Source: Acidobacteriota bacterium (GTDB taxonomy: Bacteria; Acidobacteriota; Terriglobia; UBA7540). From it: a stretch of 38,151 nucleotides of DNA. The translations under genes and the position numbers were made by a program. Below are positions 3,641-35,617 of the stretch, piece after piece. Below the pieces are notes generated by a model, which was not told the origin of the DNA, did no database searches, and worked only from the letters and a program-made list of their open reading frames with translations. The number at the start of each line of letters is the position of its first letter. Position 1 is the stretch's first letter. The stretch spans positions 1 to 38,151 of the forward strand of contig CADDZC010000038.1 in NCBI GenBank assembly GCA_902812365.1, written 5' to 3'.

Positions 3641-3644
3641 GGAT

Positions 3645-4930: not shown

Positions 4931-4978
4931 AAACGCCCGCGGGGGCGGACTGGCGGGCGACGCTTCGACGGCGAAGCG
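4931..4978. terminator. Two small hairpins between secreted protein and ketosynthase genes
   Basis: CGCCC (4934-4938) pairs with GGGCG (4943-4947), with AAA on the plus strand, so on the minus strand the hairpin is followed by TTT. A second perfect hairpin, CGCTTCG/CGAAGCG with a 4-nt loop, spans 4961-4978. Placed after the minus-strand gene at 5029-5463, they may form a weak terminator or attenuator before the ketosynthase operon. Confidence 0.35.
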
Positions 4979-5028
4979 CCGCGGGAGCATGAAGAGGGCG
5001 CCACTTCCGGCCTGACCTCCCCCCGCCT

Positions 5029-14860: not shown

Positions 14861-15775
14861 ATGATGAGCGCCGGAGAACGAAAATTCAAGCTCGCCCTGG
14901 TCCAGATGTCGGTGAGCTCGAACCCCGATGAGAATCTGGCCCGCGCCGTGGGCCGCGTGGAAGAAGCCGCGCGCGCCGGCGCCGAAGCGGTGTGCCTGCC
15001 GGAGCTTTTCCGTTTCCCCTACTTTTGCCAGCGCGAAGACCCGAGCTGGTTTGACCTGGCCGAGCCGCTGTCCGGGCCAACCACCGAGGCGCTGAGGAAA
15101 GTGGCCAGACAGTCGGGCGTGGTCGTCGTCGCCCCTTTTTTCGAACGTCGCGCCCCGGGAGTCTATCACAATAGCGCCGCCGTGATCGACGCCGACGGCG
15201 AAATCCGCGGCGTCTATCGAAAGATGCATGTTCCCGACGATCCGGCTTATTACGAGAAATTTTATTTCACGCCCGGAGACCTGGGATTTCGCGCTTTCGA
15301 CACCCGCGTCGGACGCCTGGGAACGCTGATTTGTTGGGACCAGTGGTACCCGGAAGCGGCGCGCCTGGCGGCCCTGCGGGGCGCAAGCGTGTTACTGTAT
15401 CCCACCGCCATCGGGTGGCATCGGCACGAGAAAGACCTCGTCGGGGCGGCACAGCGGGACGCCTGGCGAACGGTCCAGCGCGCCCACGCCATTGCCAACG
15501 GGGTTTACGTGGCGGTGGTCAATCGCGTCGGCCAGGAACTGCCTGCCGGCGCCGCTTCGCCTGAAGCCGGAATCGAATTCTGGGGATCGTCGTTTCTGGC
15601 TGACCCCTTCGGGGTGATAGTGGCGGAAGCTTCGGCCGACCGGGAAGAGATTTTGATGGCTGAAGTGGACCCGCGGCGGATTGAGGACGTCCGGCGCCAC
15701 TGGCCGTTCCTGCGCGACCGCCGGATTGACGCCTATCAAGGCCTCGAACGCCGCCTTTTGGATGATGAGAATTGA
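14861..15775 (+). CDS. aguB: N-carbamoylputrescine amidase
   Basis: Nitrilase-superfamily enzyme of 304 aa that hydrolyses N-carbamoylputrescine to putrescine, CO2 and ammonia. The catalytic triad is Glu48 (CLPELF), Lys121 (YRKMHVPDD) and Cys158 (LICWDQWYPEAAR). The stretch HVPDDPAYYEKFYFTPGD is the substrate-specific signature of this branch, and the downstream IEFWGSSFLADPFG also fits. Start: two ATGs are adjacent (14861 and 14864); the frame is open upstream but not family-like. The stop overlaps the TTG start of aguA, so the two steps from agmatine to putrescine are encoded as a coupled pair. No arginine decarboxylase gene is in the window to make the agmatine. Confidence 0.95.
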   Translation: MMSAGERKFKLALVQMSVSSNPDENLARAVGRVEEAARAGAEAVCLPELFRFPYFCQREDPSWFDLAEPLSGPTTEALRKVARQSGVVVVAPFFERRAPGVYHNSAAVIDADGEIRGVYRKMHVPDDPAYYEKFYFTPGDLGFRAFDTRVGRLGTLICWDQWYPEAARLAALRGASVLLYPTAIGWHRHEKDLVGAAQRDAWRTVQRAHAIANGVYVAVVNRVGQELPAGAASPEAGIEFWGSSFLADPFGVIVAEASADREEILMAEVDPRRIEDVRRHWPFLRDRRIDAYQGLERRLLDDEN

Positions 15776-16896
15776 AGACACCCGTTGGCCGTCACCCGAG
15801 AGGTTCGCTCGCCACCCGCCACTTCCCGGTTCCGGCGGCGCTCGGTTTCCGGATGCCGGCCGAGTGGGAAGCGCACGAGGCCACGTGGATCAGCTGGCCG
15901 CACAATCGTCGCGACTGGCCGGGCAAGTTCGCGCCCATCCCCTGGGTTTACGGCGAAATCGTCCGGCACATCGGCCCGGGCGAGCGGGTGCGCGTGCTGG
16001 TGAATTCTGCCGGCCAGGAAACACGAGCCCGAAGGTTGTTGACCCAGATCGACGCCAACCTGCCTAACGTCGAGTTTTTCCGCATTCCGACCGACCGGAG
16101 TTGGACGCGCGATTTTGGACCCATGTTCGTGCGGCGGGAAGGGGGCGGCCGGCCCGAGCTGGCCGTGGTGCGGTTCCGGTTTAACGGTTGGGCCAAATAT
16201 CCGAACTGGAGGCGCGATAACCGCGTCGCCGAGCGAGTGGCGCGGCGGCTCGGCTATCGCGTGTTTCCGGCCCGAATCGGCGCGCGGGACATTGTGCTGG
16301 AAGGAGGAAGCATCGACGTCAACGGGCGGGGATCGCTGCTCACGACCGAGGAATGCCTTCTCGATCCCGAAGTGCAAGCGCGGAACCCGGGCCTTGGACG
16401 AGCCGATCTAGAAACCGTCTTTGCCCGCTATCTCGGCGCTACGAACATCCTGTGGCTGGGGCGCGGCATCGCCGGGGATGATACCCACGGCCACGTGGAC
16501 GATTTCTGCCGCTTCGTCGCGCCCCGCACCGTGGTGCTGTGCCGGGAAGCCAATTCCCATGATCCCAATTATCGCGCGCTCGAAGAGAACCGCGAGCGGC
16601 TCGAGGGCCTGCGGCTGGAGGACGGCTCGAAGCCGGAAATCGTCCGCCTCCCCATGCCCTCGCCGCTTTACCTCCGCGGCCAGCGCCTGCCCGCCAGCTA
16701 CGCCAACTTCTACTTTGCCAATGCCGCCCTGCTGGTGCCGACTTTCAATGATGCCCATGACCGCTTGGCGCTGGGCACGCTCGCTGAGATCGTCCGCGAC
16801 CGTCCGGTGATCGGCATCCACGCCGTCGATCTGGTTTGGGGACTGGGAACACTCCATTGCCTCACCCAGCAACAGCCAAAAGCCGAGACGCTGTGA
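15772..16896 (+). CDS. aguA: Agmatine deiminase
   Basis: Cytosolic guanidino-group hydrolase of 374 aa converting agmatine to N-carbamoylputrescine. Conserved parts are RMPAEWEAHEATWISWPHN at 27-45, DRSWTRDFGP near 108-117, LEGGSIDVNGRG at 176-187, the catalytic His/Asp stretch GDDTHGHVDD at 235-244, and nucleophile Cys363 in LHCLTQQQP. The start is TTG at 15772-15774, overlapping the aguB stop as TTGA; the next candidate is the ATG of MPAEWE at codon 28, which would also leave all conserved residues. The coupled start is preferred because most of the added residues have ordinary composition, but it is not proven. With aguB it completes the two-step route to putrescine. Confidence 0.95.
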   Translation: MKTPVGRHPRGSLATRHFPVPAALGFRMPAEWEAHEATWISWPHNRRDWPGKFAPIPWVYGEIVRHIGPGERVRVLVNSAGQETRARRLLTQIDANLPNVEFFRIPTDRSWTRDFGPMFVRREGGGRPELAVVRFRFNGWAKYPNWRRDNRVAERVARRLGYRVFPARIGARDIVLEGGSIDVNGRGSLLTTEECLLDPEVQARNPGLGRADLETVFARYLGATNILWLGRGIAGDDTHGHVDDFCRFVAPRTVVLCREANSHDPNYRALEENRERLEGLRLEDGSKPEIVRLPMPSPLYLRGQRLPASYANFYFANAALLVPTFNDAHDRLALGTLAEIVRDRPVIGIHAVDLVWGLGTLHCLTQQQPKAETL

Positions 16897-20962: not shown

Positions 20963-23731
20963 CTATTGATTCGGCAACAGCGCCTGCTCAAACGACAAGG
21001 CGTTGACGTCCGTAAACCGCGGGGTTCCCGGCGGCAGCGTGGAGAGGCTTTGGAAGTCCGTGTCAAAATTCTCGCCTCGCGTCGGCGGGCTGTAAACCGT
21101 CGTGCAGCACTTGTAGATTCCGGTGGCCTGGCGGGAATAGTAAAAACTGACGATCGAGCCGCGATAGTAGAAGCTCTGGCCGCCCCAGTTTTCCAGATAG
21201 CGGAGGAAATTGTGAACCCCGCCGTCCGTACCGAAGTCCTGGGGTGTGGGGTAGCCGGTGGGCTGGGCGAACGAGATGTTCTTGCCGCTGATAATTCCCA
21301 TACGATAGGAAGTTGTCGAAGCGTTGCGCCCGGAGGGGCTCGTCGGACTCGTGAAGCTGTTGGCGGTGCCCCAGCTATTCGAGAGAAAAGTTACGGCATC
21401 ACCGATCACGGCCGCCGGGACATGGCAGCGGCCCGCCTGATCGTTGAAGACGTTGCCGGCCCCGAGCGTCGTATCCGCGTTGTAGTCGCCCCGCACATAG
21501 ACGGGATTTTCGGCCGCGATGGTGAATCCGCCGTAGTTGCTGTTACCCTGGGGATAGGTGCAGTTCGCCGAGGAGAGCGGGGGCAGTTGACCGAGTGACC
21601 CGTGATAAATCCGCAGGGCGCGGCGGAAAAAGACCACGCTGTTCTTCCGCGCCACGTTGGCCGTTACCGTGGTGAAGGGAGAGATCGCGCACCCCGGCGT
21701 GTAAATGCAACTCCCCGCCGGCTGCACGATGTTGGGGTCTGGCGCCGCACCGTATGTATCCAGAAGCCCGTTGCCGTTGACATCTTCGGGAGACTCGCCG
21801 TTGTAATTGGCCGGTTCCAAAACTCCGTCCGGAGCGCCCGTCGGAGAGGCGGCGTTCACGATGTCCTCGTTACCGTATTCTCCCGTCTCGTGGTTGACGA
21901 TGACCGGGTTGGCGGCCGGCGAGCTCGTATCCGGCGCCGGATCATAGTTGCCGCGCCGGTCCGAAAAATAGACGATGTAGCCACCGTAAGTGTTGACGGC
22001 CTGGGTGCCGCTGCACGTTCCGTGGACGGAGACGATTCCCTGGCAAGCAAACCACAGTTGCAGGCTGGAGACGTCCAGCTCGGCGTAGCTCATGATGCCG
22101 TTCATGTAAATGTTGCCGTCATTCGTATCCCGCCTGCTCCCTTCGCGGGTATCGTAGAGGTTAAGGGGAATATAGTCGTAGGGGCTGGTGCTGGCGGTAC
22201 TGTTGCCCAAAGGACCACCCTGAGCCACCCCGCTGCGGGAAGCCGGCGGGCCGGTGGGATTCCCGTTGAGCGGCAGAGTGTTCACCTGCTCGAGGTGGAG
22301 GATGGGATAGTACGTCTTGCCTCCGGTGGTACACGGGCCCGTTTGCGACGTCCCGGAGCCGTTGACGTCGTTCGGATGTTCAATTCCCTGCTCCAGAATC
22401 TCCATCGTCACCGGCACCCAAACGGGCGGGGGGCCCACGCTGGTCTGCATGTCGATTTCGATATAACCTCCGAGCAGGGGCGTTCCGCTGGGCGTCATAA
22501 AGTCGTTGTCTTGGGTCTGATTCGTGGGGCCGCCGCTCGGGACCGGTCCGGGTGAGAGCGCGATCGGGGGATGGCAGGGGTCCACCGTATAGCCATAAAG
22601 GGCCGGAGCCGTCGGCAGGTTCAGCGTATTGTCGAGCGGCACGATGGCAGGGTAGCCGTTGACGTCCGTCGTCGGGTTACCCGGCTGTGAGGCCGGCAGC
22701 GAAGCGGCCGTGTCGGAAAGCAAGATGCGGAGGCTCGCCTTGTTCATGAAGCGCTCGAGACCCACCAGGGCCGCGTCCGTCGACAAGTCGCGGCGAATCA
22801 AGTCAATCGGTTGCGCTCCCGCCAAAGCGATCGCCAGGTTAAGTTTCTTCGCGCCCGTCTTCCCGTTGCGAATATTGGCGTTGTAAGTCACCAGCGACAG
22901 TTTCTGCCAATTGGGGTTCGCCGCGCTTCCGGGCCCGCCGGTCACGCTTCCCTCGCCCCACCCGAGCGGCCGGCACGGAGGGGTGGGAGGGCTGGAGCCA
23001 TTGCAGCCGCCGGCGCTCTCAATCACGTCGACAGTGCCCGTGTAGTTCGAGGAGGTCGGCCAGCCGTTCGAAAGCTGCGTGCGAACGATGTCCTTGTAAG
23101 CCGTCACCTTGTCGGCCAGAACGAGCGTGTTCCCGTTGCCTTCGGCCAAAAAAAGGTTGCCGTTGGTGTGGACGCGCCCTCCAAAATTGAAATTGGGTCC
23201 GGCGAAGAACGAGAGGTCTTTGTCGGAAAAAATCCCGAACTCGAACACCGGTACCGCCACATCCTGCACTTGGCGGCTGAGCTTCACTTCGGTCTTGGTG
23301 AGTCCGTAATCGGCCATGGCCGTCAAGGTGATCGGCGTAATGATCCCCTGCAGCCCGGCGAGAGGCCCGGAGCCTCCGATGGTGCCCGTCACCGAGGCCA
23401 GCTTGCCGCCACTCTGCGCCGGGACCAGGCTGTAGATCGGGTACGTGACGCCGGGAATGACCGGCTGATACGCCGCCGCGCCCAGACTCTGGATGTTGGC
23501 CACCGTGAGAGGCGTCGTGGCCGACAAATCGGCCAGGTCCGCGCTCATCTTTTCCAGGCCGCCTTCGGCCGCGTAAAAGGCCACCGAGTCGTCGCGATTG
23601 CTGTTGGCCACCTTCTGCTCTCCCGTCACCATAAAATAGAACCCCAGCATCATCAGGGAGAAGATCAGCATCATGCCCAGAATAATAATCAGGGCCATGC
23701 CGGAATCCCGCCGATTTCTTTCATACCGCAT
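20963..23731 (-). CDS. Very large PilX/GspK-like prepilin, minus-strand pilin operon gene 4
   Basis: Predicted pilus-tip component of 922 aa, against about 150-350 aa for usual PilX or GspK. The leader MRYERNRRDSG ends at Gly11, followed by the helix MALIIILGMMLIFSLMMLGFYF. Position +5 is Ile, not Glu, as in GspK tip pseudopilins. The helix continues into VAFYAAEGGLEKM, typical of PilX N-terminal domains. Then comes a long extracellular region with FNFGGRVHTNGNLFLAEG (also seen in other PilX-like proteins) and, near residue 645, DVNGNGLLD, an EF-hand-like calcium loop. About ten Cys occur in the passenger. The start is ATG 23731, with GAGAGG 8 nt upstream; an in-frame extension to 23824 lacks similarity and runs into the previous gene. 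The PilX family is a good call; adhesion or calcium binding is inference. Confidence 0.85.
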   Translation of the reverse strand: MRYERNRRDSGMALIIILGMMLIFSLMMLGFYFMVTGEQKVANSNRDDSVAFYAAEGGLEKMSADLADLSATTPLTVANIQSLGAAAYQPVIPGVTYPIYSLVPAQSGGKLASVTGTIGGSGPLAGLQGIITPITLTAMADYGLTKTEVKLSRQVQDVAVPVFEFGIFSDKDLSFFAGPNFNFGGRVHTNGNLFLAEGNGNTLVLADKVTAYKDIVRTQLSNGWPTSSNYTGTVDVIESAGGCNGSSPPTPPCRPLGWGEGSVTGGPGSAANPNWQKLSLVTYNANIRNGKTGAKKLNLAIALAGAQPIDLIRRDLSTDAALVGLERFMNKASLRILLSDTAASLPASQPGNPTTDVNGYPAIVPLDNTLNLPTAPALYGYTVDPCHPPIALSPGPVPSGGPTNQTQDNDFMTPSGTPLLGGYIEIDMQTSVGPPPVWVPVTMEILEQGIEHPNDVNGSGTSQTGPCTTGGKTYYPILHLEQVNTLPLNGNPTGPPASRSGVAQGGPLGNSTASTSPYDYIPLNLYDTREGSRRDTNDGNIYMNGIMSYAELDVSSLQLWFACQGIVSVHGTCSGTQAVNTYGGYIVYFSDRRGNYDPAPDTSSPAANPVIVNHETGEYGNEDIVNAASPTGAPDGVLEPANYNGESPEDVNGNGLLDTYGAAPDPNIVQPAGSCIYTPGCAISPFTTVTANVARKNSVVFFRRALRIYHGSLGQLPPLSSANCTYPQGNSNYGGFTIAAENPVYVRGDYNADTTLGAGNVFNDQAGRCHVPAAVIGDAVTFLSNSWGTANSFTSPTSPSGRNASTTSYRMGIISGKNISFAQPTGYPTPQDFGTDGGVHNFLRYLENWGGQSFYYRGSIVSFYYSRQATGIYKCCTTVYSPPTRGENFDTDFQSLSTLPPGTPRFTDVNALSFEQALLPNQ

Positions 23732-23768
23732 ACGCTGTTCCTCTCGATCGGACTCGATGCTCCCGCCG

Positions 23769-25022
23769 TCAGTACTTGTTTCTGTACGCCAGGTCACGAA
23801 TCGTGACTGAGGTGTTGAGGGCATTGGTGAAAATTTGCTGCGTTGAATTGGGAAGAGGCGGCGTGGCGCCCCAGGCCGTAAGGTTGACTTTGGCGATCAG
23901 ATTGTTCGCCTCCGGCGCCACCAGCGGCCCCGTCCATCCGGTCGTGCCGTCCGACAGATCGTAGTGAAACTGGAGCACATTGATGCCCAGGGCGATCGGC
24001 ACCGCCGGCGCCGCGTCATACTGCTCCATGAGCGCCGGCTGCTGGCCGAGTCCGGGATTCTGCAGGAAGAACGTCGTCATATCAATCTTGTAAGCCACGG
24101 TGGCGGGCCACGTGCCGTCGGAGTTGGCCAAACTCGCCGGCGTTCCGCTGATCGCACCCGGTTGGTTCAGCCCCAACGGATCGGTGTTCCGGAATGTGAT
24201 CAGGTTGTTCACGGTGTCAACCGCGGTCACCATGCCCAAAGCGTATCCATGGGTGTTGTTAAACATGATCAGATCCCCGACGTTGATCTGGTACTGGCCC
24301 GAACCCAGGTTAAACCCCGCCGGCCCGACCACGGTGACCTGCCATCCCGAACAGGCGCTGGGCAGCGGCGGGAGCGGCGAGGCAGCACAGCCGGCTGGGT
24401 AAGGAGGTATTCCCGCCGCCGATCCTGTTGTCGCCAGCGAGAGGGGCACCTGATAGGTGCTGGGAGTCGTCAACGGCGATCCTTCGAAGACCTGGTCGAT
24501 GGCAATGGTGGTGATCTTATCGGTTGTCTGGGGCTTGACTCCCGTGACAATGGTCGGGCCACACTGGTAGCCCGGCGTGATGGCCGACAGAACCCCTCCG
24601 TTAGCAGGAAACGTGCCACAGCCGGCCGCGAATGCCGGCCCCGGCCACGTCACGGCGGTTGAGCCGCTCCCTTGGGGCATCGGAATCCCTCCCACCGGAA
24701 TGCCGCCGGCTGTCGAGGTCAGATTGCGGGCGATCAAATCCACCCCTCCGCGCAGGTTCTGGTTCATGTCGGCAATGCTGGCCGCCGACTGAGTGGCGGA
24801 AAAAAGCTGGCTAAAGAGCGTGAACGCGGCCCCCATGACGATCAGCGTCAGCGCCATGGCAAACATCAGCTCGATGACCGTGAAGCCCGCGGGGGCTCTC
24901 GGCGCGGCCAGGCCCGCCTCCCGTCCCGACCTTCCCTCAGTCCTGACATGCGCGGGGCGAAGCCATTTTCCGCTACCGGCGCCCGCCGCAGCGCGCACGG
25001 ATTCAGATGTAAGGCGACACAT
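23769..25022 (-). CDS. PilW/GspJ-like prepilin, minus-strand pilin operon gene 3
   Basis: Minor pilin of 417 aa. The prepilin peptidase site is AG46|FTVIEL with Glu at +5, followed by the helix MFAMALTLIVMGAAFTLFSQLF. The leader would be 46 residues, long and Arg-rich, so the true start may be later, although no better in-frame start with a ribosome-binding site was found. The start overlaps the end of the PilV-like gene by 20 nt. The mature part is mostly beta strand with segments such as GGVDLIARNLTSTAGG (typical of PilW: helix then LTR-like turn) and VGDLIMFNNTHGYALGMVTAVD. The last residues VTIRDLAYRNKY match the end of PilW proteins. It should be processed by PilD and assembled with its operon partners at the pilus tip. 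Confidence 0.85.
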   Translation of the reverse strand: MCRLTSESVRAAAGAGSGKWLRPAHVRTEGRSGREAGLAAPRAPAGFTVIELMFAMALTLIVMGAAFTLFSQLFSATQSAASIADMNQNLRGGVDLIARNLTSTAGGIPVGGIPMPQGSGSTAVTWPGPAFAAGCGTFPANGGVLSAITPGYQCGPTIVTGVKPQTTDKITTIAIDQVFEGSPLTTPSTYQVPLSLATTGSAAGIPPYPAGCAASPLPPLPSACSGWQVTVVGPAGFNLGSGQYQINVGDLIMFNNTHGYALGMVTAVDTVNNLITFRNTDPLGLNQPGAISGTPASLANSDGTWPATVAYKIDMTTFFLQNPGLGQQPALMEQYDAAPAVPIALGINVLQFHYDLSDGTTGWTGPLVAPEANNLIAKVNLTAWGATPPLPNSTQQIFTNALNTSVTIRDLAYRNKY

Positions 25023-25557
25023 AGGTGGATACCGAGACCTGCCGGGTTTGGCCCGGCGGTGTCGTATATTTGATCGTGACCGTAATCTGCTTGACGTTGG
25101 CGTTGTTGGTGGCGCTGTCGGTAACGACGATCAGGCGCTGGTAGTTGTTGAGCGCCACGGTGACGTCGTCCGCCGTCCCCAGAACGCCGTCCGGCCCTGG
25201 CAGCGTCACGCTCTCGATGCCCGGCCCGTCGTCGGCCGTGCCGATGATCCCGTCCGCGCCCTCGGTCTTGAGCGCCTGCCAGCCGACCACGAAAATCCCA
25301 TTCCCCGTACCCACGTTGTCGATCTTGTCGTAAGTGATGGTCGCGTTGTTGCGCGCCGAAAGAATGCCCTCCAAGGTCTCACGCGCCGCCTGGCGGGCGA
25401 TGGTGTCTTCCTGGGCGGTCTGGACGGTGGCGAACCCGCTCGTGAACCCCCAGGCCAGCGCCATCAGCCCGATGCCCATAATGACGCCGGCAATCATCAC
25501 TTCGAGGAGCGTGAAGCCACCGTCGTTACGAACGCCATCGGTATAGAAGCGTCGCAT
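25003..25557 (-). CDS. PilV/GspI-like prepilin, minus-strand pilin operon gene 2
   Basis: Minor pilin of 184 aa. Leader MRRFYTDGVRNDGG of 14 residues, cleavage G14|F15 with FTLLEV and Glu at +5, then a hydrophobic helix to about residue 45. The length and short basic leader are textbook for this family. Two copies of a possible calcium loop, DGIIGTADD at 102-110 and DGVLGTADD at 123-131, face each other across a short linker. It is 14 bp downstream of the FimT-like gene and overlaps the PilW-like gene. It probably bridges FimT-like and PilW-like subunits in the tip complex, as GspI does. Confidence 0.87.
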   Translation of the reverse strand: MRRFYTDGVRNDGGFTLLEVMIAGVIMGIGLMALAWGFTSGFATVQTAQEDTIARQAARETLEGILSARNNATITYDKIDNVGTGNGIFVVGWQALKTEGADGIIGTADDGPGIESVTLPGPDGVLGTADDVTVALNNYQRLIVVTDSATNNANVKQITVTIKYTTPPGQTRQVSVSTYVSPYI

Positions 25558-25571
25558 CCTGACAACCTCAT

Positions 25572-26291
25572 CTAGTACCAGGCTGTGCCGTTAAAACGGT
25601 AGCCTTTCGTGCGTCCCGTCGCGCCCATGATCGTCACCGCCCGCTGCGTGTTCTTGTTTCCGGCCATCCCGAAAAACACGGTCCCGTTCACCGGCACCGC
25701 GCCGGAAAGCACTTCGCCGTCGCTTTGAAACGTCAGCTGACAGGGAGTGGTATTGCCGCTGCAATTAAACCCGGCCACGGGCCCGCTGTTGCCGAACCCA
25801 TCCGGCGTGTCGGGAACCCCGGCCGTCACCGTGTAGGTAACGCCCGGGGGCAAAAACACATCAGCCACGGGCGTCGTGCCGGTCACCGCCCCGGTGGTGA
25901 TGTTGATCTCCTGCCGCACCACCACGATTTCCGCCGTCCCGTTGAACGTCACCAGAAAGTTCCGCCGCTGGTCCACCGCTCCGAAGCGCGCCTGGCGAAG
26001 CTGGCTGACCACCGTCTCCAGGGCCGAGTCCGCCCGCACCATGGGAATCGTGTTGACGATGATCGTCCAGGCGGCCCCCACCAGAATTCCGGCGATGGTG
26101 ATGGCGATCAGCAACTCAATCACCGAGAATCCGCTGTCCTTCCGCCTCACGCTGCTGGCCTCGCTTTCGCCGGCGTTCACCCAGGCTGCCCCCCTCCTCA
26201 GTCCGTCGGAGAATTCATCGGCAGCTTGCGGCCGTGTCATGAGCCAGGTCCGCCCCTTTATCCTCCCTCGGCGCTTTCGGCCCAGTTCCAT
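25572..26291 (-). CDS. FimT/GspH-like prepilin, minus-strand pilin operon gene 1
   Basis: Minor pilin of 239 aa if started at ATG 26291. Cleavage site G54|F55 with FSVIELLIA and Glu at +5, followed by the helix ITIAGILVGAAWTIIVN. LRQARFGAVDQRRNFLVTFNG is the typical FimT/GspH second helix and first strand. The C-terminal FGMAGNKNTQRAVTIMGATGRTKGYRFNG also fits. The leader looks too long; ATG 26240 (MTRPQAAD) would shorten it to 36 residues, and neither start has a convincing ribosome-binding site. It is the first gene of the minus-strand operon and lies back to back with the plus-strand FimT-like gene, from which it differs strongly in sequence. Confidence 0.83.
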   Translation of the reverse strand: MELGRKRRGRIKGRTWLMTRPQAADEFSDGLRRGAAWVNAGESEASSVRRKDSGFSVIELLIAITIAGILVGAAWTIIVNTIPMVRADSALETVVSQLRQARFGAVDQRRNFLVTFNGTAEIVVVRQEINITTGAVTGTTPVADVFLPPGVTYTVTAGVPDTPDGFGNSGPVAGFNCSGNTTPCQLTFQSDGEVLSGAVPVNGTVFFGMAGNKNTQRAVTIMGATGRTKGYRFNGTAWY

Positions 26292-26293
26292 GC

Positions 26294-26336
26294 CGGCGTG
26301 CCAGTTAGGCAGCTCGCGCGGCGGAAGCCCCGGGGC
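26294..26336 (-). repeat. Copy 1 of a 43-bp direct repeat shared with the 3' end of nuoI
   Basis: Matches 31058-31100 with three mismatches and one inserted base, including an 18-base identical run at 26308-26325. Read on the minus strand, it resembles the codons for PPRELPN-HA near the end of NuoI. Here it lies just upstream of the minus-strand FimT-like gene, with a 1-nt shift breaking the upstream frame. Confidence 0.6.
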
Positions 26337-26423
26337 GCGGAACTAACCCACCGGGTCGTAATCCGCGCGTCTTCAAGCACGAGCTCTGAAGGCGCGGTGA
26401 CGGCTAAAGGTTTAGCACTCGTT

Positions 26424-26429
26424 ATTATA
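26424..26429 (-). promoter_or_regulatory. Candidate -10 box for the minus-strand pilin operon
   Basis: The minus strand reads CATGTATAATAACG, a perfect TATAAT directly preceded by TG, in the 289-bp gap between the two pilin operons. It would give a 5' UTR of about 125 nt. No good -35 is seen. The surrounding TATCACATGTATA is partly palindromic and could bind a dimeric regulator. No matching promoter was found for the plus-strand operon; TTGACA at 26499-26504 has no -10 partner. Confidence 0.45.
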
Positions 26430-26580
26430 CATGTGATACCCTAACTTTGCGGATGGCTGAACCCAGGGCTCACGGAAGGGCGGCATCCAGCCGATAAGTT
26501 GACATGACGGAGCGCTCGGAGCGGGAGCGCAGCGACAGCCGGAGGTGGAACCCAGAAGCGGGTTCGCGCCGCGCACGACC

Positions 26581-27300
26581 ATGAACTTTCACCCGAGAAA
26601 CAGCCAAGCGGTTCAGCGCCGGAGCCACACCGATACGTCCGCCGCTAATTTCCGCCCGCGCAGTCGACCAGCTGATCAGCCACACTCGGGTCTTACCTTG
26701 GTCGAAGTATTGATCGTAATGAGCATCGCGGCGGTGATCGCCGCGATTGCCGTGCCGAGCGCCACCAGCGAACTCAGAGACTATCGCCTCAGTTCCGATG
26801 CCTCGTCCGTCGCCGGCGTCCTGAACGTGACCAGGATGAAAGCGGCATCACAATACGCCCCCTATCGGCTGAACCTTTACACGGACACCGGCACGTACAC
26901 CGTAGAGAGACTGTGCGGCGCGACCCCCTCGAGTATCGACGCCAACTGCACCACCGCTTACAACCCGTTCACGACGCCGCAGCTTGACCCGGCCATCGGC
27001 ACCCAGTACATCGCGCCGGGCGACTCCTATCTAGCGTGCCACCCGGCGGCCGTCACGGCCTATCCGGGGTCGGTCGCCTCTGACCCGAGCGGGTGTCCGG
27101 GCGTGGGGCCCAACCCAATCCGAATCTATTTCAACACGCGAGGTTCGCCCGTCGACGGAGCCGGGAACCCGCTCACAACCGGCGTCGTCCTTTACATCAC
27201 CAACCAGAACAACATGGTGGACGCCGTCACCATCTCCATCGGCGGGCGCGCGGCAGTGTGGAGCTGGAACGCGGGCGGCGGCTATTGGTCAATGCGATGA
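26581..27300 (+). CDS. FimT/GspH-like prepilin, plus-strand pilin operon gene 1
   Basis: Minor pilin of 239 aa from ATG 26581. Cleavage site G37|L38 with LTLVEVLIV and Glu at +5, then the helix MSIAAVIAAIAVPSATSELRDYRLSSDA. RMKAASQYAPYRLNLYTDTGTYTVERLC matches the FimT/GspH pattern in which an Ala-rich helix leads into the first strands. The mature part has four Cys that could form disulfides. A GTG at 26545 is an alternative start but only lengthens an already long leader. Its stop region contains ATGCGATGA, giving an alternative overlapped start for the next gene. It is first in the plus-strand operon, the mirror image of the gene at 25572-26291, but the mature regions are clearly different. 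Confidence 0.85.
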   Translation: MNFHPRNSQAVQRRSHTDTSAANFRPRSRPADQPHSGLTLVEVLIVMSIAAVIAAIAVPSATSELRDYRLSSDASSVAGVLNVTRMKAASQYAPYRLNLYTDTGTYTVERLCGATPSSIDANCTTAYNPFTTPQLDPAIGTQYIAPGDSYLACHPAAVTAYPGSVASDPSGCPGVGPNPIRIYFNTRGSPVDGAGNPLTTGVVLYITNQNNMVDAVTISIGGRAAVWSWNAGGGYWSMR

Positions 27301-27335
27301 CTGACCGACATAAGGCCGGACGAGGAGAAGACACC

Positions 27336-27950
27336 ATGGCGAGGATCGCGCGCTGCGACGGCGGTGTGACGCTGATCGAGACGATGCTCGCGGTCGTCAT
27401 CGCGCTCATCGTCGTCCTCAGCCTCGGAGGGGTCATCTTCAACGCCACCGTGACCAGCAATAACCAAGGCAAGGAAGCTACGCGGGCAACCATTTACGCC
27501 CAGGATAAAATGGAAAAGCTCCTCTCGCTGGATTTTAACGCCAACCCCTCGGACGCCAATAGCTGCACTCAGCTGGCTTCATCGCAACCGGCCAGCTGCA
27601 ACACGACCGGAATTGCGGCCACGGGTTGGACGCAGGGTCTGCTCGCCGGCGGGCAGATCAGTCCGGAGCAACCGACATGCCCGAGCTCGGGCCCCTCGGT
27701 TGGCTATATCGACTTTCTTGATCAAAACGGTATGCAGCTCGGCGGAAGCTCGTGTGCGGCCCTGACCGGTACCGTCGCGTACATCCGCATGTGGCAGATT
27801 ACCGATACCGTGGTCGACGCACTTTCTCCGGCGCGCGTCATCGGCGAGAAACAGATTACGGTGGCGGTCTACTCCACCAACGCGCAGAACAGCCTGGGGG
27901 GTAACCCCATTGTCGTGCTCACGAGTTCATTGACCGACCCGAATCCGTAG
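27336..27950 (+). CDS. PilV/GspI-like prepilin, plus-strand pilin operon gene 2
   Basis: Minor pilin of 204 aa. The start is decided by the ribosome-binding site GAGGAG at 27322-27327, 8 nt before ATG 27336. This gives the classic short basic leader MARIARCDGG cut at G10|V11, with VTLIE placing Glu at +5. The ATG at 27297, overlapping the previous stop as ATGA, would add 13 residues and is less likely. The helix runs MLAVVIALIVVLSLGGVIFNATV, then the PilV-typical AQDKMEKLLSLDF. The C-terminal half holds EKQITVAVYS as in GspI/PilV. Cys pairs occur at SCTQL/SCNT and elsewhere. It sits between the FimT-like and PilW-like genes, as in the minus-strand operon. Confidence 0.88.
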   Translation: MARIARCDGGVTLIETMLAVVIALIVVLSLGGVIFNATVTSNNQGKEATRATIYAQDKMEKLLSLDFNANPSDANSCTQLASSQPASCNTTGIAATGWTQGLLAGGQISPEQPTCPSSGPSVGYIDFLDQNGMQLGGSSCAALTGTVAYIRMWQITDTVVDALSPARVIGEKQITVAVYSTNAQNSLGGNPIVVLTSSLTDPNP

Positions 27951-27987
27951 CGGCGAACGGCGCCTGGCGGTCCTCCGCAGGAGTGGC

Positions 27988-29109
27988 ATGAGACGAACCG
28001 GGAATCGGGCTTCAAGACATTTCGGGCCGGGATTTTCGCTCCTCGAACTCCTGGCGAGTGTCGCTATCATCGCCGTCATCATGGGAGCACTGTTTACCTT
28101 CATCTATCAGGCGCAGAAAAGGTACCAGGGCAACCAGGTCGTGTCAGAATCCAATCAGGATGCCCGCGCCGCCCTGGAAGTCATGACCCAGGAGATTGGG
28201 CAGGCCGGCAGCAACCCCAATTTCACCGCCAACAAGTGGCCGGCGGGGGCATCGATCAACATATCGAGCGAGCCGGTGGCCAGCCCGCAGCCGCAATGCG
28301 TCACCCTCAACGACATCAACCAGATCTACCCCGGGGACTGGCTGGCCGTGGACACGGGCGCGAACTTTGAACTGGCTCAGGTCATCACGACCAGCAACTA
28401 TACCTCCAGCCCCAGCCCTCCCTGCGCCGCCGGGATGACACCGCCGTGGATTCAGCTCGTCCTGGAACAAGACCACTGCCAGTCGGGAGCGGCGGGATGC
28501 ACGGCCCCCGAGCCGGCTACGAATCCCTGGCCGTTCCCCATCGCCAGCTACAAGCAGCCTTATCCCAGCGGCATTCTGACCGGTACCGGGACCTCGGACG
28601 ATAAGACTCTCGAGTTCTTCGGCGATATCAACGCCGATGGCGTGCTGAACTACGTTGTCTACAGCTTGTACGCCCCGGCCGGGGCGCCGACGGTGACCAT
28701 CAACGGCAACCCCTATACCCTTTACACCCTCTACCGCTCCATCACTCCGGTCACCTTTACGGCCGGTGCTGTCAACAATCCCGCGTCGCCCATGGTGCAG
28801 AACGTGCTCTACAACTCCGCGCTTAAACAAGGGCCGACCGGCCAGCCGATCTTTGCCACCTCCACCGTCACCGTGGGGGTGGTTCCCAACATCCTGACGG
28901 TGGTGGGAACGGTCGTGATCAACCTGAGCATTGCCGTGAACCCCCAGGATCTTGAGACCGGCAGCGTACAATACTATAACCTCGCGACCCAAATTCGCCC
29001 GATGAATTTGACCGCAGCCATCGCGGTCAACGGCGCCGGCGGCGGCAAGCTATTGCCGTTGCAACCAGCCGGCCTGCCCATGAGCAACCCCGTCAACTAT
29101 TACCAGTGA
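27988..29109 (+). CDS. PilW/GspJ-like prepilin, plus-strand pilin operon gene 3
   Basis: Minor pilin of 373 aa. Leader MRRTGNRASRHFGPG of 15 residues, cleavage G15|F16 with FSLLELLAS and Glu at +5, then the helix VAIIAVIMGALFTFIYQAQ. DARAALEVMTQEIGQAGSNP is the characteristic PilW stretch after the helix. The rest is beta-rich, with GDWLAVDTGANFELAQV, which parallels the GDLIMFNN segment of its counterpart at 23769-25022, and DGVLNYVVYSLY. The ending LATQIRPMNL is also family-like. Upstream GCAGGAG gives a ribosome-binding site 5-6 nt from the ATG. A GTG overlaps its stop, but the next gene more likely begins at 29121. Confidence 0.88.
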   Translation: MRRTGNRASRHFGPGFSLLELLASVAIIAVIMGALFTFIYQAQKRYQGNQVVSESNQDARAALEVMTQEIGQAGSNPNFTANKWPAGASINISSEPVASPQPQCVTLNDINQIYPGDWLAVDTGANFELAQVITTSNYTSSPSPPCAAGMTPPWIQLVLEQDHCQSGAAGCTAPEPATNPWPFPIASYKQPYPSGILTGTGTSDDKTLEFFGDINADGVLNYVVYSLYAPAGAPTVTINGNPYTLYTLYRSITPVTFTAGAVNNPASPMVQNVLYNSALKQGPTGQPIFATSTVTVGVVPNILTVVGTVVINLSIAVNPQDLETGSVQYYNLATQIRPMNLTAAIAVNGAGGGKLLPLQPAGLPMSNPVNYYQ

Positions 29110-29120
29110 GGAGCCCCAAG

Positions 29121-30854
29121 ATGCCCGCCCCACAACCGATCGTCCATCGAGCGCCACGCCAATCGGCAGATCAAGGCATTGCCCTGATTCTGGTCATGCT
29201 GGCCCTGGTCGTGCTTTCCGTACTCGCCGCCGCGATCGTCTTCACGGCGCGGTCAGAGACCATGGCCAGCTACAATTACAAGATGAACACGCAGGCCGAT
29301 TACTTGGCCAAGGCCGGCATCCAGCAGGCTACCAACTGGTTCCGCAGTTCCAAGTATCAGGCCGTCTCGCCATCGCAGGCCAGTACGTACTACGGCGTCA
29401 CTTCCGATGGCTCGGTGTTTAACCTTTACACCGCCAACACGACGCCGGTGCAGTGCATCAGCGGCTGTCCCAGCAACAACGCGGCCGTGCAGTTGATGGG
29501 AATCTCCGGCACCTCCAATTATCCCAACCTGACCAACGCCGCCGGCGTCCCCGTGGCGACGGAATTCTCCAATGACCTCGTCAACGTTCGCGTAAGCGGG
29601 GACAACAACGACTCCGGCACGTTTTCCGTGAACGCCGTTCTGCTGAACTACCAGGTCGTGAACACGGGCACCGCGCCGGCGCTGTCGACTCAAGCCGTCG
29701 AAACCTGGCTCATCACCTCTCGCGGCACCTGGACGGGCGCGGCAGGGCAGAATGGCCCCTCCGCCACTGCCGTGGAAAAAGCCATCGTTCAGCCGATCTA
29801 CACTCCCACCTGGGGCAACGCACTGTACGGGTTCTGCTCGGTCACCATGCAGGGTAGTTCCGGAGTCTGCACGGATGCGTTTAATTCGGCCTTTGGCCAG
29901 TATGGCGGAGGTAACAAGAGCGTGGCTTCGGGGGCGTGTAATTCGTCTTCCTCCAACGTCATCGACTCCGGAGCGGGCGTGGGAGCCAATGGCAGTGTAA
30001 CCCTGGGCTCCAACGTCACCGTGGCCGGGAACGTCACGGTCGGACCGGGCGCGGCGGCCTCGGCGGGCGGTGCGGCCTGCGGCAACGGTTATAACGGCAG
30101 CACCAGCTCGGTGTTAGGCGAGGTCGTGAACGGGCCGCAGAAAACACCGCCGCCGGCACCGACGTTCCGCCCCGGTTTTCCCGGCTCCGCGCCCAGCTAC
30201 TCCGGCGCGGTGACCCTCCCGGTTAACTACTCGCCGTGGCCCACAACCGGCAACTTCCCGCTCGTACCCCCCAGTGTCGTCCCTTCCAATTCGCCGCCGT
30301 TCCCAGCCAATCTCCCCCAGGGCCAGCCCTGCATGGATTCCACTTGTAGCGGCACGGCGCAACATCCGTACGAGATATCCAGCATCTCGCTCAGCGGGGG
30401 GACGAGCAGCGCTGTCAACCTGATCGGCGGCCCGGACGTCCTCCACCCGGTCTATTACGATATCGGTAGCCTCACGGAGTCGGGGAAAGGGGAGATGAAC
30501 GTTTCCGGTTACGTCGTTTTGAATGTGCAGACCACCCTGAGCATCACCGGGCAGGGCATCACCAACGGCATCAGCGGCGTCGTCGATATTCCCCCCGAGG
30601 CCGTGGTGATCAATTTCGCCGGCACCAGCGTCAGCCTCGGCGGCAACGGCGCCATCTCGGCTCTCATCAACGCTCCCAATGCCACCGTCACCGTGGGCGG
30701 CGGCGGCAGCAAAGGTTACATGGTCGGCTCCATTCAGGCCAACAGTATCAGCGTCCAGGGGGGTTACCCCGTTCATTACGATTTACAACTGAACCGAGCC
30801 GGCGGCACCATCGGCGTTCCGATCACCACCGCCTATTCCCGGCAAAAAATGTAG
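29121..30854 (+). CDS. PilX/GspK-like prepilin with bactofilin-like tail, plus-strand pilin operon gene 4
   Basis: Tip-type pilin of 577 aa. The start is decided by GAGGAG at 29108-29113, 7 nt before ATG 29121, in preference to GTG 29106, which overlaps the previous stop. After a leader ending QG19, the mature end is IALILVMLALVVLSVLAAAIVF; position +5 is Leu, not Glu, as in GspK. ADYLAKAGIQQATNWF corresponds to the AEGGLE helix of its counterpart. The passenger has short repetitive beta strands (SVTLGSNVTVAGNVTVGPGA) and a C-terminal region with ISALINAPNATVTVGGGG, resembling the DUF7305/polymer-forming domains of PilX-like proteins. It ends the plus-strand operon. The 183 bp to nuoI holds no gene and no clear terminator. 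Confidence 0.85.
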   Translation: MPAPQPIVHRAPRQSADQGIALILVMLALVVLSVLAAAIVFTARSETMASYNYKMNTQADYLAKAGIQQATNWFRSSKYQAVSPSQASTYYGVTSDGSVFNLYTANTTPVQCISGCPSNNAAVQLMGISGTSNYPNLTNAAGVPVATEFSNDLVNVRVSGDNNDSGTFSVNAVLLNYQVVNTGTAPALSTQAVETWLITSRGTWTGAAGQNGPSATAVEKAIVQPIYTPTWGNALYGFCSVTMQGSSGVCTDAFNSAFGQYGGGNKSVASGACNSSSSNVIDSGAGVGANGSVTLGSNVTVAGNVTVGPGAAASAGGAACGNGYNGSTSSVLGEVVNGPQKTPPPAPTFRPGFPGSAPSYSGAVTLPVNYSPWPTTGNFPLVPPSVVPSNSPPFPANLPQGQPCMDSTCSGTAQHPYEISSISLSGGTSSAVNLIGGPDVLHPVYYDIGSLTESGKGEMNVSGYVVLNVQTTLSITGQGITNGISGVVDIPPEAVVINFAGTSVSLGGNGAISALINAPNATVTVGGGGSKGYMVGSIQANSISVQGGYPVHYDLQLNRAGGTIGVPITTAYSRQKM

Positions 30855-31682: not shown

Positions 31683-34109
31683 TTATCGGTGCGGCGCGGA
31701 GGCCGAAGGATCCTGCCGGGCGACCCGCGCGGCGCTGGCCATCTCCCGCTGGCCTTCTACCCGCAGCGCGAGCGGGCTCGAAGCGTGCCGGGTGGGCGAA
31801 TTGGACTCGACCTCGGCCACCACGTAGATGGGCTGCCGGATCGGCTTCGCCCAATCTTCCGCCTTGAGGGTGAAGGTTCGGCTGGTCTGCGTTTCGGTGA
31901 CCAGCACTCCGTTCAGGCCCACGTTCACTACCCGCACCCCGGGCGGAAGGTTTTCGACGAAACACGGCACCCGCCCCTTGAAGCCGTTGCGGCGCTCCAC
32001 GTGCAGCGTCACCTTGACTTCCTGGCCCGGCTGCAGGGCGATTTCCCGAGGCTCGGCGGTGACGATGACATCCGGCGGCGGAATGATCGAAGCCAGTTGC
32101 AGCGCCGCCGCGCCGTTGGCGACGCGCGTCACGTCCCGGCCGTTGATCCGGGCGTGGCCCACGAACCGGATGGGCGACGGCGGCGCATCCACCGCGGCTT
32201 CGGCTGAGGCCGCCAGCACCACCACCGTCGAATTCTGTCCCGCCGGAATCGTGGCCGGGCTGGCCGTGACGCCTTTGGGCAGCCCCTTCACTTCAATTTC
32301 GATCGGACCCTCGTAGCCCGGGACGCGGTTCGCCGTCACCGTCACCGGCAGCGTGCCTCCCTTCGGAATGTTGGGATTATCGGGCGAGGCGGAGAGCCGG
32401 TAATCCGGGGCGGCGTCTCGGATCGCGAGCCGGTAGGCGAAGTCCGGACCCTCCAGGCCGCGCACATCCTGCAAGCGCAGAATGTAGTCGCCGTCCCGGG
32501 GCGCGACGAAATCGAGGCGCGAGTCGGTGCCGTAACCCGGGCCGCCGTCGTCATTGCGCCACGTCAGGTGGAAGACGGGCAGGCCGTTCGGAGGGAATTC
32601 GGCGCCGGGCGGCAGGATGTCGGCCTTATAGACCGGGGTGTTGACGGGGTGCACATCCGGCGAGGTGCCAAGAAACGCCAACCGCAAGCCGTCCACTCCT
32701 TGCAGGATCGTGTCGGCGTCGGGCTGATCGGGCACGAAGGCGACGCGGTCGAGCTCGTCGCCGACCATCAAATAATCTCCCTCGCGCAGGCCGCTGGTGG
32801 TATTCAGGCGGATGCCCAGGGTGCGCGAGTCACGATCGGCCAGCGTGGTGGTGGTTTCGTTGAGGCAGCGGATGGTGGCGCGAGGGATCGGGCGGCCCTG
32901 AGCGTCGAGCACCTCGATCACCGAATCGAGCGGCGAGCCGAGACGGGCGGCGGCCACCTCGATCGTCAGGTGCTGGCCCTGGCGAGCCGTAAAGCGAAAG
33001 TCATCTTCATCGGGCTTTGCGCCGGCCTTCCGGTCTCGGCCAATGTGTCCGTTGATCGTCACCGGAATGGACACCGGTTGGGCCTCGGCCGGCGTGTCAT
33101 TGGGTTCCCGCTCGAGGATTTCCGGTTCATTTCCGACGGCCAACGTGACGGGGTCCAGCGCAGTGCCGGCCGGCGTTTTCACGCTCACCGGCAGGGTCGT
33201 CCAGCCGTCCGCCGAGCGGGGAGGATCAACCTTGATCTGGCGGAGGCCGCCAAGGTTGACGCCGCTCACGGTGACCTCGGCGGGCTGCCCGGCGCGGACA
33301 CCGAGCGGGAAGACGCCGGTCACATAAGGCAGTGCTCCGGCATTTAAACGATAAAAATGGTCGGGACCTCCGCCCTTTTCCCGGTCCGTAATGGCCAGCG
33401 TGTAGGCGCCGTCGGCGGGCAGCTTGGCGGTGAGCACGGCGTCGGGGTGGCGATCATATTCTCCGGCCTGGGCCAGGAGGCGGCCGGAGGCGTCGCGCAG
33501 CATGAGCATCGACTTGAGCTGCGAGCCGAGGGGCGCGGCCACGACCTGAAACACTAGCTCCTCGCCCCGCTTGCCCGAGAACTGATACACATGAGTGTCG
33601 CCCGGCGCCGAAAGGACGCCGACCAGCGTGGCCGGCAACTGCACCGCCTGCGCTTCGCCCGCGCCGCCCGCCTTCTGCTCAATTTCGGGCAGCGACCCCA
33701 CCTCCAGCACACCGCGATTGGAGGTGCCGAGCGGCGTGCGGATGCGGAACCAGTGGAGGCCGGAAGGCACGTTCCCCGCCACCGTCACCTGCATCTGAAC
33801 GGACTGCTTCTTGCCGAGCGGAACTTGGGCGCCCAGATCGACCCCGGGCCGCGGGCCGGCGATCTTTTCCGGAATATCGGTCACCTGAACAACCCGGGCC
33901 GCGATGCCGGGCGCGTCAAAGATGACGTCCTTCACGTTGGCGAGATTTCGGCCGTCCACGGTGAAGGCGGCGGTGGTGCCGCGCTCAATGCCGGACGGCC
34001 ATACCTTGTCAATACTGGGCGGAATGATCGGCTCGTCGGCCGCCACAGGCTTGGCAACCAGGAACCCGCCCGCGATCAGCATTCCCAAAAAGATCGACTT
34101 GGTCTTCAT
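31683..34109 (-). CDS. Large exported protein with PPC and Ig-like domains
   Basis: Exported protein of 808 aa with a clear signal peptide (1-24, cut after VAA). An Ig/TIG-like region at about 30-140 (PSGIERGTTAAFTVDGRNL) is followed by a bacterial pre-peptidase C-terminal (PPC) domain at about 160-260 (GDTHVYQFSGKRGEELVFQV). A second TIG-like unit follows, then a second PPC at about 340-600 (EREPNDTPAEAQPV, DYILRLQDVRGLEGPDFAYRL) with an insertion. The C-terminal 200 residues are Ig-like strands (LKGLPKGVTASPATIPAGQ-type). No catalytic motif is seen. It lies 30 bp after the WD40-cytochrome gene and so is likely the third member of the DUF1553 cluster. Such proteins accompany PSD1-type genes in Planctomycetes and Acidobacteria; the role is unknown, perhaps glycan or surface binding. 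Confidence 0.83.
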   Translation of the reverse strand: MKTKSIFLGMLIAGGFLVAKPVAADEPIIPPSIDKVWPSGIERGTTAAFTVDGRNLANVKDVIFDAPGIAARVVQVTDIPEKIAGPRPGVDLGAQVPLGKKQSVQMQVTVAGNVPSGLHWFRIRTPLGTSNRGVLEVGSLPEIEQKAGGAGEAQAVQLPATLVGVLSAPGDTHVYQFSGKRGEELVFQVVAAPLGSQLKSMLMLRDASGRLLAQAGEYDRHPDAVLTAKLPADGAYTLAITDREKGGGPDHFYRLNAGALPYVTGVFPLGVRAGQPAEVTVSGVNLGGLRQIKVDPPRSADGWTTLPVSVKTPAGTALDPVTLAVGNEPEILEREPNDTPAEAQPVSIPVTINGHIGRDRKAGAKPDEDDFRFTARQGQHLTIEVAAARLGSPLDSVIEVLDAQGRPIPRATIRCLNETTTTLADRDSRTLGIRLNTTSGLREGDYLMVGDELDRVAFVPDQPDADTILQGVDGLRLAFLGTSPDVHPVNTPVYKADILPPGAEFPPNGLPVFHLTWRNDDGGPGYGTDSRLDFVAPRDGDYILRLQDVRGLEGPDFAYRLAIRDAAPDYRLSASPDNPNIPKGGTLPVTVTANRVPGYEGPIEIEVKGLPKGVTASPATIPAGQNSTVVVLAASAEAAVDAPPSPIRFVGHARINGRDVTRVANGAAALQLASIIPPPDVIVTAEPREIALQPGQEVKVTLHVERRNGFKGRVPCFVENLPPGVRVVNVGLNGVLVTETQTSRTFTLKAEDWAKPIRQPIYVVAEVESNSPTRHASSPLALRVEGQREMASAARVARQDPSASAPHR

Positions 34110-34139
34110 GGCGAACCTCGGAAACGATATTCGGCCCGC

Positions 34140-35576
34140 TTAGCGACTGGCCCTCGGGCTCCCTTCGGCCCGGCTCGATGGCTCAAGCGGCTTGAAGGCC
34201 AGAAGCGGTCCGACGGCTTGCTGGTAAGTCATAGCATCATAAAGGGTAAGGCTGCCGTCAAAGCGGCCGGCGGCCAGCCACCGCCCGTCGGGGCTCAGGC
34301 TAAGGGCCTCAACCCAATCTGGCTGATGAGCGATCACGCTGATAGGGTTGAGCGTCACGGCGTCGCGAAAGCGGATCGAGCCGTCCGCCGAGCTGGTGAT
34401 GATCGTCTTGCCGTTCGGCGACCAGAGAATCTGCAGGATGCTGTCTTCGTCGGCGATCAGGGATTGGATCAACCGGCCATCCTGATCGCCTAACTTCCAG
34501 ATATAGATGGTTTTATCGTAACCGGCGGCGGCGATTTCGCGGCCATCCGGGGAGTAGGCGAGGCCCGTCAAGCCATCCGTCGCGTCGCTAAGGGTATAGA
34601 GCCGCTGGCCGGTCGCCACATCCCAGATCTTGACCGTGCGATCCTGGGACGCCGAGGCCAGCCGCCGGCCGTCGGGGCTGAAGGCAACGCCGAATACGGC
34701 GTCAATATGGTCTTGTAAGTTCTTGATTTCCTTGCCTGTCCCTACATCCCACAGCTTCACCATCTTATCGTAGCTGCCCGAGGCCACCAGACGCCCGTCC
34801 GGACTCCAGGCCACCGCATAGATGCAGTCCGTGTGGCCTTGCAGCGTCTTGACCAGCCGGCGCGTCGAAACCTCCCAGATCTTGATCTCTCCCGAGCGTT
34901 GCGGCGGGCCGCCCCCGGCTGCGAGCAGCTTGCCGTCCGGGCTAAATGCCACTGAACGCACGTAGTCCGCATGCCCGCCGAGATTGGCCAGCACCCTTCC
35001 CGTGGCTGGGTCGAGGAGCCGCACCTCTTTGTATCCGCCCACCGCCAGAAGTTTGCCGTCCGGAGAGAATCGGACCGAGGAGACCGGGGAGATCACCGGA
35101 ACCTGCGGCTTGATATCCGGTATCGCCAATGGAGTCAACGTCTTGGCAGCTTCGCCGGGAGCCGGGCCGGGGGCGCCGAGATCAATCCACGCCTTGATGA
35201 TCTCGATCTCACTGGCAGGTAAGGGATTGCCCCCAAACGGCATCCGCGGCTGCACCTTCCCTTCCAGCATCTGGACAAGCCGGCTCTGCTCCGCCTTTCC
35301 CGGCACAATCACCGGACCGTGCTGGCCACCTTTCATGAGGCTGTCATACGTCTCCATAACCAGGCCTCCCATTCTGGAGGCGCTTGAATGGCAGGCCAGG
35401 CAGTTCTTCTGGAGAATCGGCGCGACTTCGCGGTTAAACGCCGGCGAATCAGCAGCTTGGACGCATCGGAGCCAGCCTCGTAGCGGCCCAACGGTCACCG
35501 CGGCCAACACCGCCGCCACGGCCCACATCCGACTTAAGTTATTGAGGCTAAATAATTTGTTAAACCTGTTGTGCAT
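34140..35576 (-). CDS. PSCyt1-type cytochrome c domain fused to a WD40 propeller
   Basis: Exported protein of 478 aa. Residues 17-42 are a hydrophobic signal or anchor (MWAVAAVLAAVTVG). One heme-binding motif C59LACH63 lies in a Planctomycete-type cytochrome C domain (FNREVAPILQKNCLACHSS, then GKAEQSRLVQMLEGKVQPRMPFGG). From about 140 to 465 there are seven WD40-like blades with SPDGKLLA or SPDGRRLA turns and KIWDV-type ends, enough for a full propeller. ATG 35576 is chosen; the frame is open up to 35660 and would overlap the DUF1553 gene by 43 nt, and residues before ATG 35576 lack family likeness. The gene sits between the DUF1553 and PPC genes. It probably acts in the periplasm as an electron-transfer or scaffold partner. 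Confidence 0.87.
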   Translation of the reverse strand: MHNRFNKLFSLNNLSRMWAVAAVLAAVTVGPLRGWLRCVQAADSPAFNREVAPILQKNCLACHSSASRMGGLVMETYDSLMKGGQHGPVIVPGKAEQSRLVQMLEGKVQPRMPFGGNPLPASEIEIIKAWIDLGAPGPAPGEAAKTLTPLAIPDIKPQVPVISPVSSVRFSPDGKLLAVGGYKEVRLLDPATGRVLANLGGHADYVRSVAFSPDGKLLAAGGGPPQRSGEIKIWEVSTRRLVKTLQGHTDCIYAVAWSPDGRLVASGSYDKMVKLWDVGTGKEIKNLQDHIDAVFGVAFSPDGRRLASASQDRTVKIWDVATGQRLYTLSDATDGLTGLAYSPDGREIAAAGYDKTIYIWKLGDQDGRLIQSLIADEDSILQILWSPNGKTIITSSADGSIRFRDAVTLNPISVIAHQPDWVEALSLSPDGRWLAAGRFDGSLTLYDAMTYQQAVGPLLAFKPLEPSSRAEGSPRASR

Positions 35577-35617
35577 TCGCCGGCAAAACCCTGTCCCTCT
35601 GAGAATCTTTCGCGCCC

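Follow-up and report, generated by a model that had tools for sequence, protein, structure and literature searches.

Two ancient, oppositely oriented T-V-W-X minor-pilin operons of an Acidobacteriota genome as candidate alternative, PilY1-independent tips of one type IVa pilus

Inspection of the open reading frames in the 38,151-nucleotide stretch of Acidobacteriota DNA analysed here (the window) shows that positions 20963-30854 hold eight prepilin ORFs, running as X-W-V-T on the minus strand and then as T-V-W-X on the plus strand around a 289-bp centre, all found where and as the original prediction had placed them. On the minus strand, set A consists of A_X (20963-23731), a 922-aa PilX/GspK-class minor pilin with a large distal domain that is the predicted tip subunit of the set, A_W (23769-25022) of the PilW/GspJ class, A_V (25003-25557) of the PilV/GspI class with two DGxxGTADD repeats that resemble Ca-binding motifs, and A_T (25572-26291) of the FimT/GspH class, whose start codon is tentative. 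Set B, on the plus strand, consists of the FimT/GspH-class B_T (26581-27300), the PilV/GspI-class B_V (27297-27950), the PilW/GspJ-class B_W (27988-29109) and B_X (29121-30854), a 577-aa GspK/PilX-class protein that is the predicted, ComZ-like tip subunit of this set. The lengths of 922 and 577 aa follow from ATG starts at 23731 and 29121, respectively, and for these starts the predicted lengths were correct. For B_V the most likely start is ATG 27297 and not that of the longer GTG ORF from 27093, which overlaps B_T; the homologues of B_V begin to align close to the prepilin site. With ATG starts at 26291 for A_T and 26581 for B_T the central gap is 26292-26580 (289 bp), and if B_T begins at a possible upstream GTG at 26545 it is 253 bp. 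Elsewhere in the window, a carbon-nitrogen hydrolase gene adjoins a gene of the Porphyromonas-type peptidyl-arginine deiminase/agmatine deiminase family (14657-16896), a probable agmatine-to-putrescine pair, and a minus-strand run at 31683-38149 encodes a protein with a PPC domain, a WD40 protein and a Big_2-containing PSCyt2/PSD1 protein.

The Pfam N_methyl family (PF07963) matches all T, V and W proteins with E values of 2.5e-7 to 1e-3 (A_T 2.5e-7, A_W 1.2e-5, B_T 1.7e-6, B_W 1.3e-4), and PilX_N (PF14341) scores 27.9 bits on A_X, above its cut-off of 25.5, and 17.0 bits on B_X, below it, with 10 of 26 B_X relatives matching at E 0.001. Among TIGRFAM models PilV is the best for both V proteins (TIGR02523; E 1.4e-9 for A_V, 2e-4 for B_V), and the T, W and X proteins are fitted by GspH-, HpsC/Verru_Chthon-C- and GspK/HpsA-type models, for instance TIGR01708 (GspH) on A_T at E 5.9e-7, TIGR02599 on B_W at E 2.7e-9, below cut-off, and NF037980 (GspK) on B_X at E 9.8e-6. 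As in a type IVa set, each operon has one prepilin gene per FimU/FimT-PilV-PilW-PilX class, and the expectation of one FimT/GspH-, PilV/GspI-, PilW/GspJ- and PilX/GspK-like member apiece is borne out jointly by N_methyl/PilX_N, TIGRFAM and the profile pairing described below. Glu stands at mature position +5 in the six T, V and W proteins and is absent from both X proteins (GMALII..., GIALIL...), as had been read from the sequences before, and this distribution is likewise that of a type IVa minor-pilin set. Since orthologues of each gene, up to 65% identical, keep the T-V-W-X order in many genomes and the A and B classes pair by profile, the eight-gene pattern is more than chance; across dozens of genomes the order is invariant in both families.

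We aligned each family from its relatives and compared all 28 profile pairs. The best partner of every set-A class was the corresponding set-B class (A_W with B_W, for example), reciprocally for all four. Once the N-terminal helix was taken out, T could still be aligned between the sets (E 4e-8), V and W in part and X not at all; over the aligned parts the mature proteins are 25-31% identical. Judged by these profiles, sets A and B are ancient paralogues, and the capping X subunits appear to have diverged most, beyond recognition outside the N-terminus, because the A/B alignment covers only the N-terminus of X but the whole length of T. A recent duplication, which the original prediction had also discounted, is excluded by the 25-31% identity and by the existence of separate A and B families across the phylum, and an assembly artefact by the same layout in another assembly (genome G014, locus L135). 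The two sets also differ in small motifs: GRx[RK] stands at the A_T C-terminus in 47/66 sequences, and GRxR in 40/66, with neither in any of 18 B_T (the window A_T ends in GRTK, not GRxR), and at least one DGxxGTADD repeat is kept in 11 of 12 aligned A_V and in none of 18 B_V. These differences point to different jobs for sets A and B.

The X subunits were modelled with AF2, A_X from 52 sequences (pLDDT 84, pTM 0.87) and B_X from 26 (pLDDT 81, pTM 0.73). Foldseek gave no match at E 0.001 for either model, with none below E 0.8 for A_X, and PDB profile searches with both X alignments gave no match, so the fold assignment of B_X rests on a second look with VIA-align. There, ice-binding proteins fill the 25 best PDB rows for B_X residues 177-545 (Z 15.5-17.2, rmsd 2.3-3.3 and mostly 2.3-2.7, over 180-193 residues); after them comes ComZ of Thermus (6qvi) with Z 13.1 over 311 residues at rmsd 9.9, and the next row falls to 6.7. 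On this model B_X is a GspK-type pilin with an inserted beta-solenoid of the ice-binding-protein (DUF3494-type) fold, predicted at 29676-30782 (plus strand) within the pilin domain, which is the ComZ architecture. The C-terminal part of the solenoid corresponds to Pfam DUF7305, found in 18 of 26 B_X members; Pfam DUF3494 itself neither matched the window B_X nor appeared among the families listed for its relatives, so the likeness is one of fold only. The best PDB match of A_X is again ComZ 6qvi (Z 8.8, 354 aligned, rmsd 10.4), which is only a lead. The predicted structures and their ComZ matches fit the earlier suggestion that the GspK-like X subunits could cap a tip.

The crystal structure of ComZ shows a GspK-like pilin carrying an inserted beta-solenoid of the ice-binding-protein fold, for which a location at the tip was argued to be most plausible; ComZ binds DNA and PilA2, and pilA2 adjoins comZ along with pilA1 and pilA3 (PMC6561018). 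The Thermus thermophilus PilA1-PilA2-PilA3 and ComZ group resembles the window operons in having three pilin genes, with PilA2 GspI/PilV-like, beside a solenoid-bearing GspK-like pilin, but the window has two sets, its A_X is larger, and the PDB profile searches found no sequence similarity. A second resemblance is to cyanobacterial HpsA/HpsB/HpsC (NF038301, NF038303, NF038304). Residues 834-879 of A_X (21095-21232, minus strand) match the C-terminal part of HpsA (NF038301) at E 8.4e-13, the HpsA profile matches 52 of 52 A_X members (best E 3e-18), and there are weak matches of A_V to HpsB and of A_W to HpsC. The window A_X reaches 46.9 bits against the NF038301 equivalog cut-off of 400, with a short segment aligned, and these matches point to a relationship of the A_X family to HpsA over that segment. 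The verrucomicrobial Verru_Chthon cassette A-D is likewise a prepilin cassette, and its A protein is very long; its models (TIGR02596/02599/02600) are best or second for B_T, B_W and B_X, far below their cut-offs in each case (32.4/70, 36.7/256.5 and 18.6/332.3).

The textbook tip of a Gram-negative type IVa pilus consists of PilY1 and minor pilins. The original prediction had noted that PilY1 is absent locally, which we confirm, and the absence extends beyond the locus: PF05567 has no match in the window, in the whole genome or in 61 relatives (0/61). The model itself works, because 46 of 149 Acidobacteriota genomes match it, none of them of the same class as the window genome, and lack of PilY1 seems to characterise the class as a whole. 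In a phylum sample of the same size (149 genomes) the set-A X profile matches 29, and the two occur together in one genome against about nine expected (G200, with a marginal, N-terminal A_X match), giving a one-sided Fisher p of 1e-4 by genome and of 1.5e-3 by GTDB family (63 families in the sample), where the exclusion follows clades and genomes are not independent. PilY1 and set-A X thus appear almost mutually exclusive across Acidobacteriota, which is a strong hint rather than proof. The window genome has one PilB gene with adjacent PilT and PilC genes (contig 39) and two further PilT-like ATPases, in line with the single shared pilus machine that had been proposed, and its four PilA genes lie on contig 1, none of them local to the operons, so that the major pilin is indeed missing from the locus. 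On contig 1, the four tandem PilA-type prepilin genes (L095, 9397-12073) adjoin a response-regulator gene.

Several four-pilin sets for one machine have precedents. Myxococcus xanthus has three FimU-PilV-W-X-PilY1 clusters for a single machine, of which two suffice individually, and its sets are like those of the window in being complete and in having an X without Glu+5 (PMC7541494); regulated use of different tips has been proposed (PMC9109919). Unlike those clusters, the window operons contain no PilY1 gene, their genome has no PF05567 match, and their X proteins carry large distal domains. Xylella fastidiosa also has paralogous pilE/V/W/X, fimT and pilY1 sets, which divide roles within a single bacterium and have mostly opposing phenotypes, but PilY1 proteins are present and the sets lie in separate regions (PMC9956873).

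Intact T-V-W-X operons of either set are common in the relatives surveyed (Acidobacteriota, Terriglobia), where a set normally stands alone. Among 39 genomes of the family A_X proper occurs in 10 and B_X in 20, with 18 genomes having only B and eight only A, near-complete genomes among them. Both sets occur in two, the window genome (G000) and G014, where they stand head to head in the same orientation, and of the 53 set-A loci whose upstream sequence exceeds 3 kb, that of G014 (L135) has a divergent set B. The expectation that mirrored pairing is conserved in relatives therefore fails insofar as the sets mostly stand alone, and holds insofar as they are not randomly placed where the family has both (2/2 head to head). 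Co-occurrence lies below expectation (2 vs ~5; one-sided Fisher p 0.026 at n=39, weakened by incomplete assemblies, and p 0.10 when restricted to high-quality genomes). Other arrangements are also found: in L151 (Acidobacteriales) a third complete T-V-W-X set (1342-5404, minus strand) faces an A_T at 7661 (plus strand) from 2.3 kb away, with T, V and W nearest B and an X clearly near neither A nor B; L149, a further Acidobacteriales record, carries pieces of a second set; set-A genes occur in tandem as two complete sets in L192 and as two adjacent X genes in L201; and in G080 set A and a B-like X lie unlinked on separate contigs. Multi-cassette genomes with several B-like X genes or fragments are seen as well (G004, G020, G017), with B-like X matches on five contigs of G004 (258, 301, 145, 136 and 5).

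With G016 and G031 left out of the reading (their branches have length 10, which most likely reflects wrong ORFs), the RpoB tree places the window genome in a group with g12 and, deeper, with g2, g15 and g6 at modest support. The B operon tree joins G014 and G030 (support 100) with the window next (62), the A operon tree joins G014, G033, G005 and G021 (support 100) apart from the window and G001, and both agree with the RpoB grouping. We found no flanking genes common to G014 and the window. On these trees and flanks the A/B pair may have been inherited and moved as a unit, or may have formed twice. A gene that seemed to be a common upstream neighbour of set A in G033 and of set B in G030 (F30) proved to be an MFS transporter, a member of a large family, and was dropped. 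The idea of one divergent control region found no support: the intergenic DNA of G000 and G014 shares no more than chance words, no sigma-70 site above the scan threshold lies in the window intergenic region, and neither A_T nor B_T has a sigma-54 consensus in the preceding 450 bp (a looser form, TGG-N9-TGC, occurs in 11 other upstream regions but not in the window). The unlike intergenic DNA and the lack of a strong promoter thus give no support to a conserved shared control region.

Taken together, we suggest, with a probability of roughly 60%, that the two operons encode two alternative, PilY1-independent priming and tip complexes for one type IVa pilus, with a receptor domain in each X subunit. 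Each T/V/W/X set would form a short priming complex in the inner membrane; from it the single type IVa machine (PilB/PilT/PilC, with PilA) would extend the fibre, leaving the set at the fibre's tip. X would cap the top of the complex because it lacks Glu+5, and its pilin domain would bear a large distal domain, in set B an ice-binding-fold beta-solenoid as in ComZ, in set A a larger domain that is partly HpsA-related and of uncertain fold. These distal domains would do the receptor or adhesin work done elsewhere by PilY1, and a cell with both sets would have two tip types at its disposal for different targets. The data show the make-up and order of the genes, the pairing of the classes, the predicted B_X fold, a single PilB-type motor, the lack of PilY1 and its near-exclusion with A_X across the phylum; we infer the assembly and location of the tips, the use of PilA rather than a type II system, the division of labour between the sets, their ligands and their regulation.

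A different and unlikely assignment is that one set, more likely A, provides the minor pseudopilins H-I-J-K of a type II-like system, with the other set a type IVa tip and the head-to-head placement incidental. Type II GspH-I-J-K has the same four pilin classes with a K lacking Glu+5, the window proteins give weak GspK, GspH and GspI profile matches, and the type II secretion-like locus on contig 47 has a secretin, GspE and GspF but few prepilin genes; in G014, moreover, set A lies 5 kb from a locus homologous to it (gspD-G-F-E). However, the other set-A loci examined (with 10 kb flanks for most) have no type II gene near them, and in two (L099, L179) a PilA-like gene lies ~0.1-1 kb from A_X, so that window-type sets are usually unlinked to type II genes and the gene neighbourhood favours type IVa pili over type II secretion for set A. 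Both X proteins carry a distal domain and greatly exceed the 307 positions of the GspK model, every type II equivalog cut-off is missed (GspH 29.6/80, GspI 16.3/44.35 at best, GspJ 11.5/64.85, GspK 25.3/130), and contig 47 has its own K-like protein. That locus (L096, 5465-14702) also encodes a TPR-secretin fusion, and its K-like protein is short (13791-14702).

Less probable again is a role of one or both sets as a competence-pilus tip like that of ComZ, with A_T as a FimT-like DNA binder. The ComZ-type X, the GRx[RK] motif frequent in A_T and missing from B_T, and ComEC, present in the window genome and in 36 of 39 family genomes, would all suit DNA uptake. Yet the window A_T has GRTK, the clear ComZ-like fold belongs to set B and the motif to set A, and ComEC is near universal. 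GRxR, the DNA-binding motif of FimT, is moreover partly present in FimU, and tested FimU proteins bind no DNA (PMC8897410), while the ComZ solenoid, whose closest fold relative is an ice-binding protein, has no conserved ice-binding residues and its authors drew no functional clue from the fold (PMC6561018).

A compound tip, in which subunits of both sets mix in a larger complex and a divergent promoter keeps the sets in step, is very improbable: the head-to-head placement in G000 and G014 despite differing flanks would suit it, as would RpoB and operon trees that allow an inherited pair, but it would have two X caps that both lack Glu+5, the DNA between the operons is not conserved, and most relatives have one set (18/39 only B, 8/39 only A), so each set is probably self-sufficient and able to work without the other, which favours alternative tips.

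Two alternative tips for one pilus may fit a wider pattern, which we put forward tentatively and as somewhat less likely than not: that Terriglobia and other set-A Acidobacteriota build a tip without PilY1 in which X carries an exchangeable receptor domain, and that lineages alter their grip by swapping or stacking whole T-V-W-X cassettes, be they A, B or others. Several minor-pilin clusters per genome are already known from Myxococcus and Xylella, and a regulated choice of tip has been proposed. In the literature searched we found no report of ComZ-type X subunits in PilY1-less cassettes across Acidobacteriota, or of two kinds head to head, and no paper on the minor pilins of Acidobacteriota. 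Were ComZ-like capping pilins in use across a large phylum in place of PilY1, the tip would be modular at its X subunit, and ComZ would be one case of a wider solution rather than an oddity of Thermus; with two kinds of set in one genome, alternative tips could be compared side by side.
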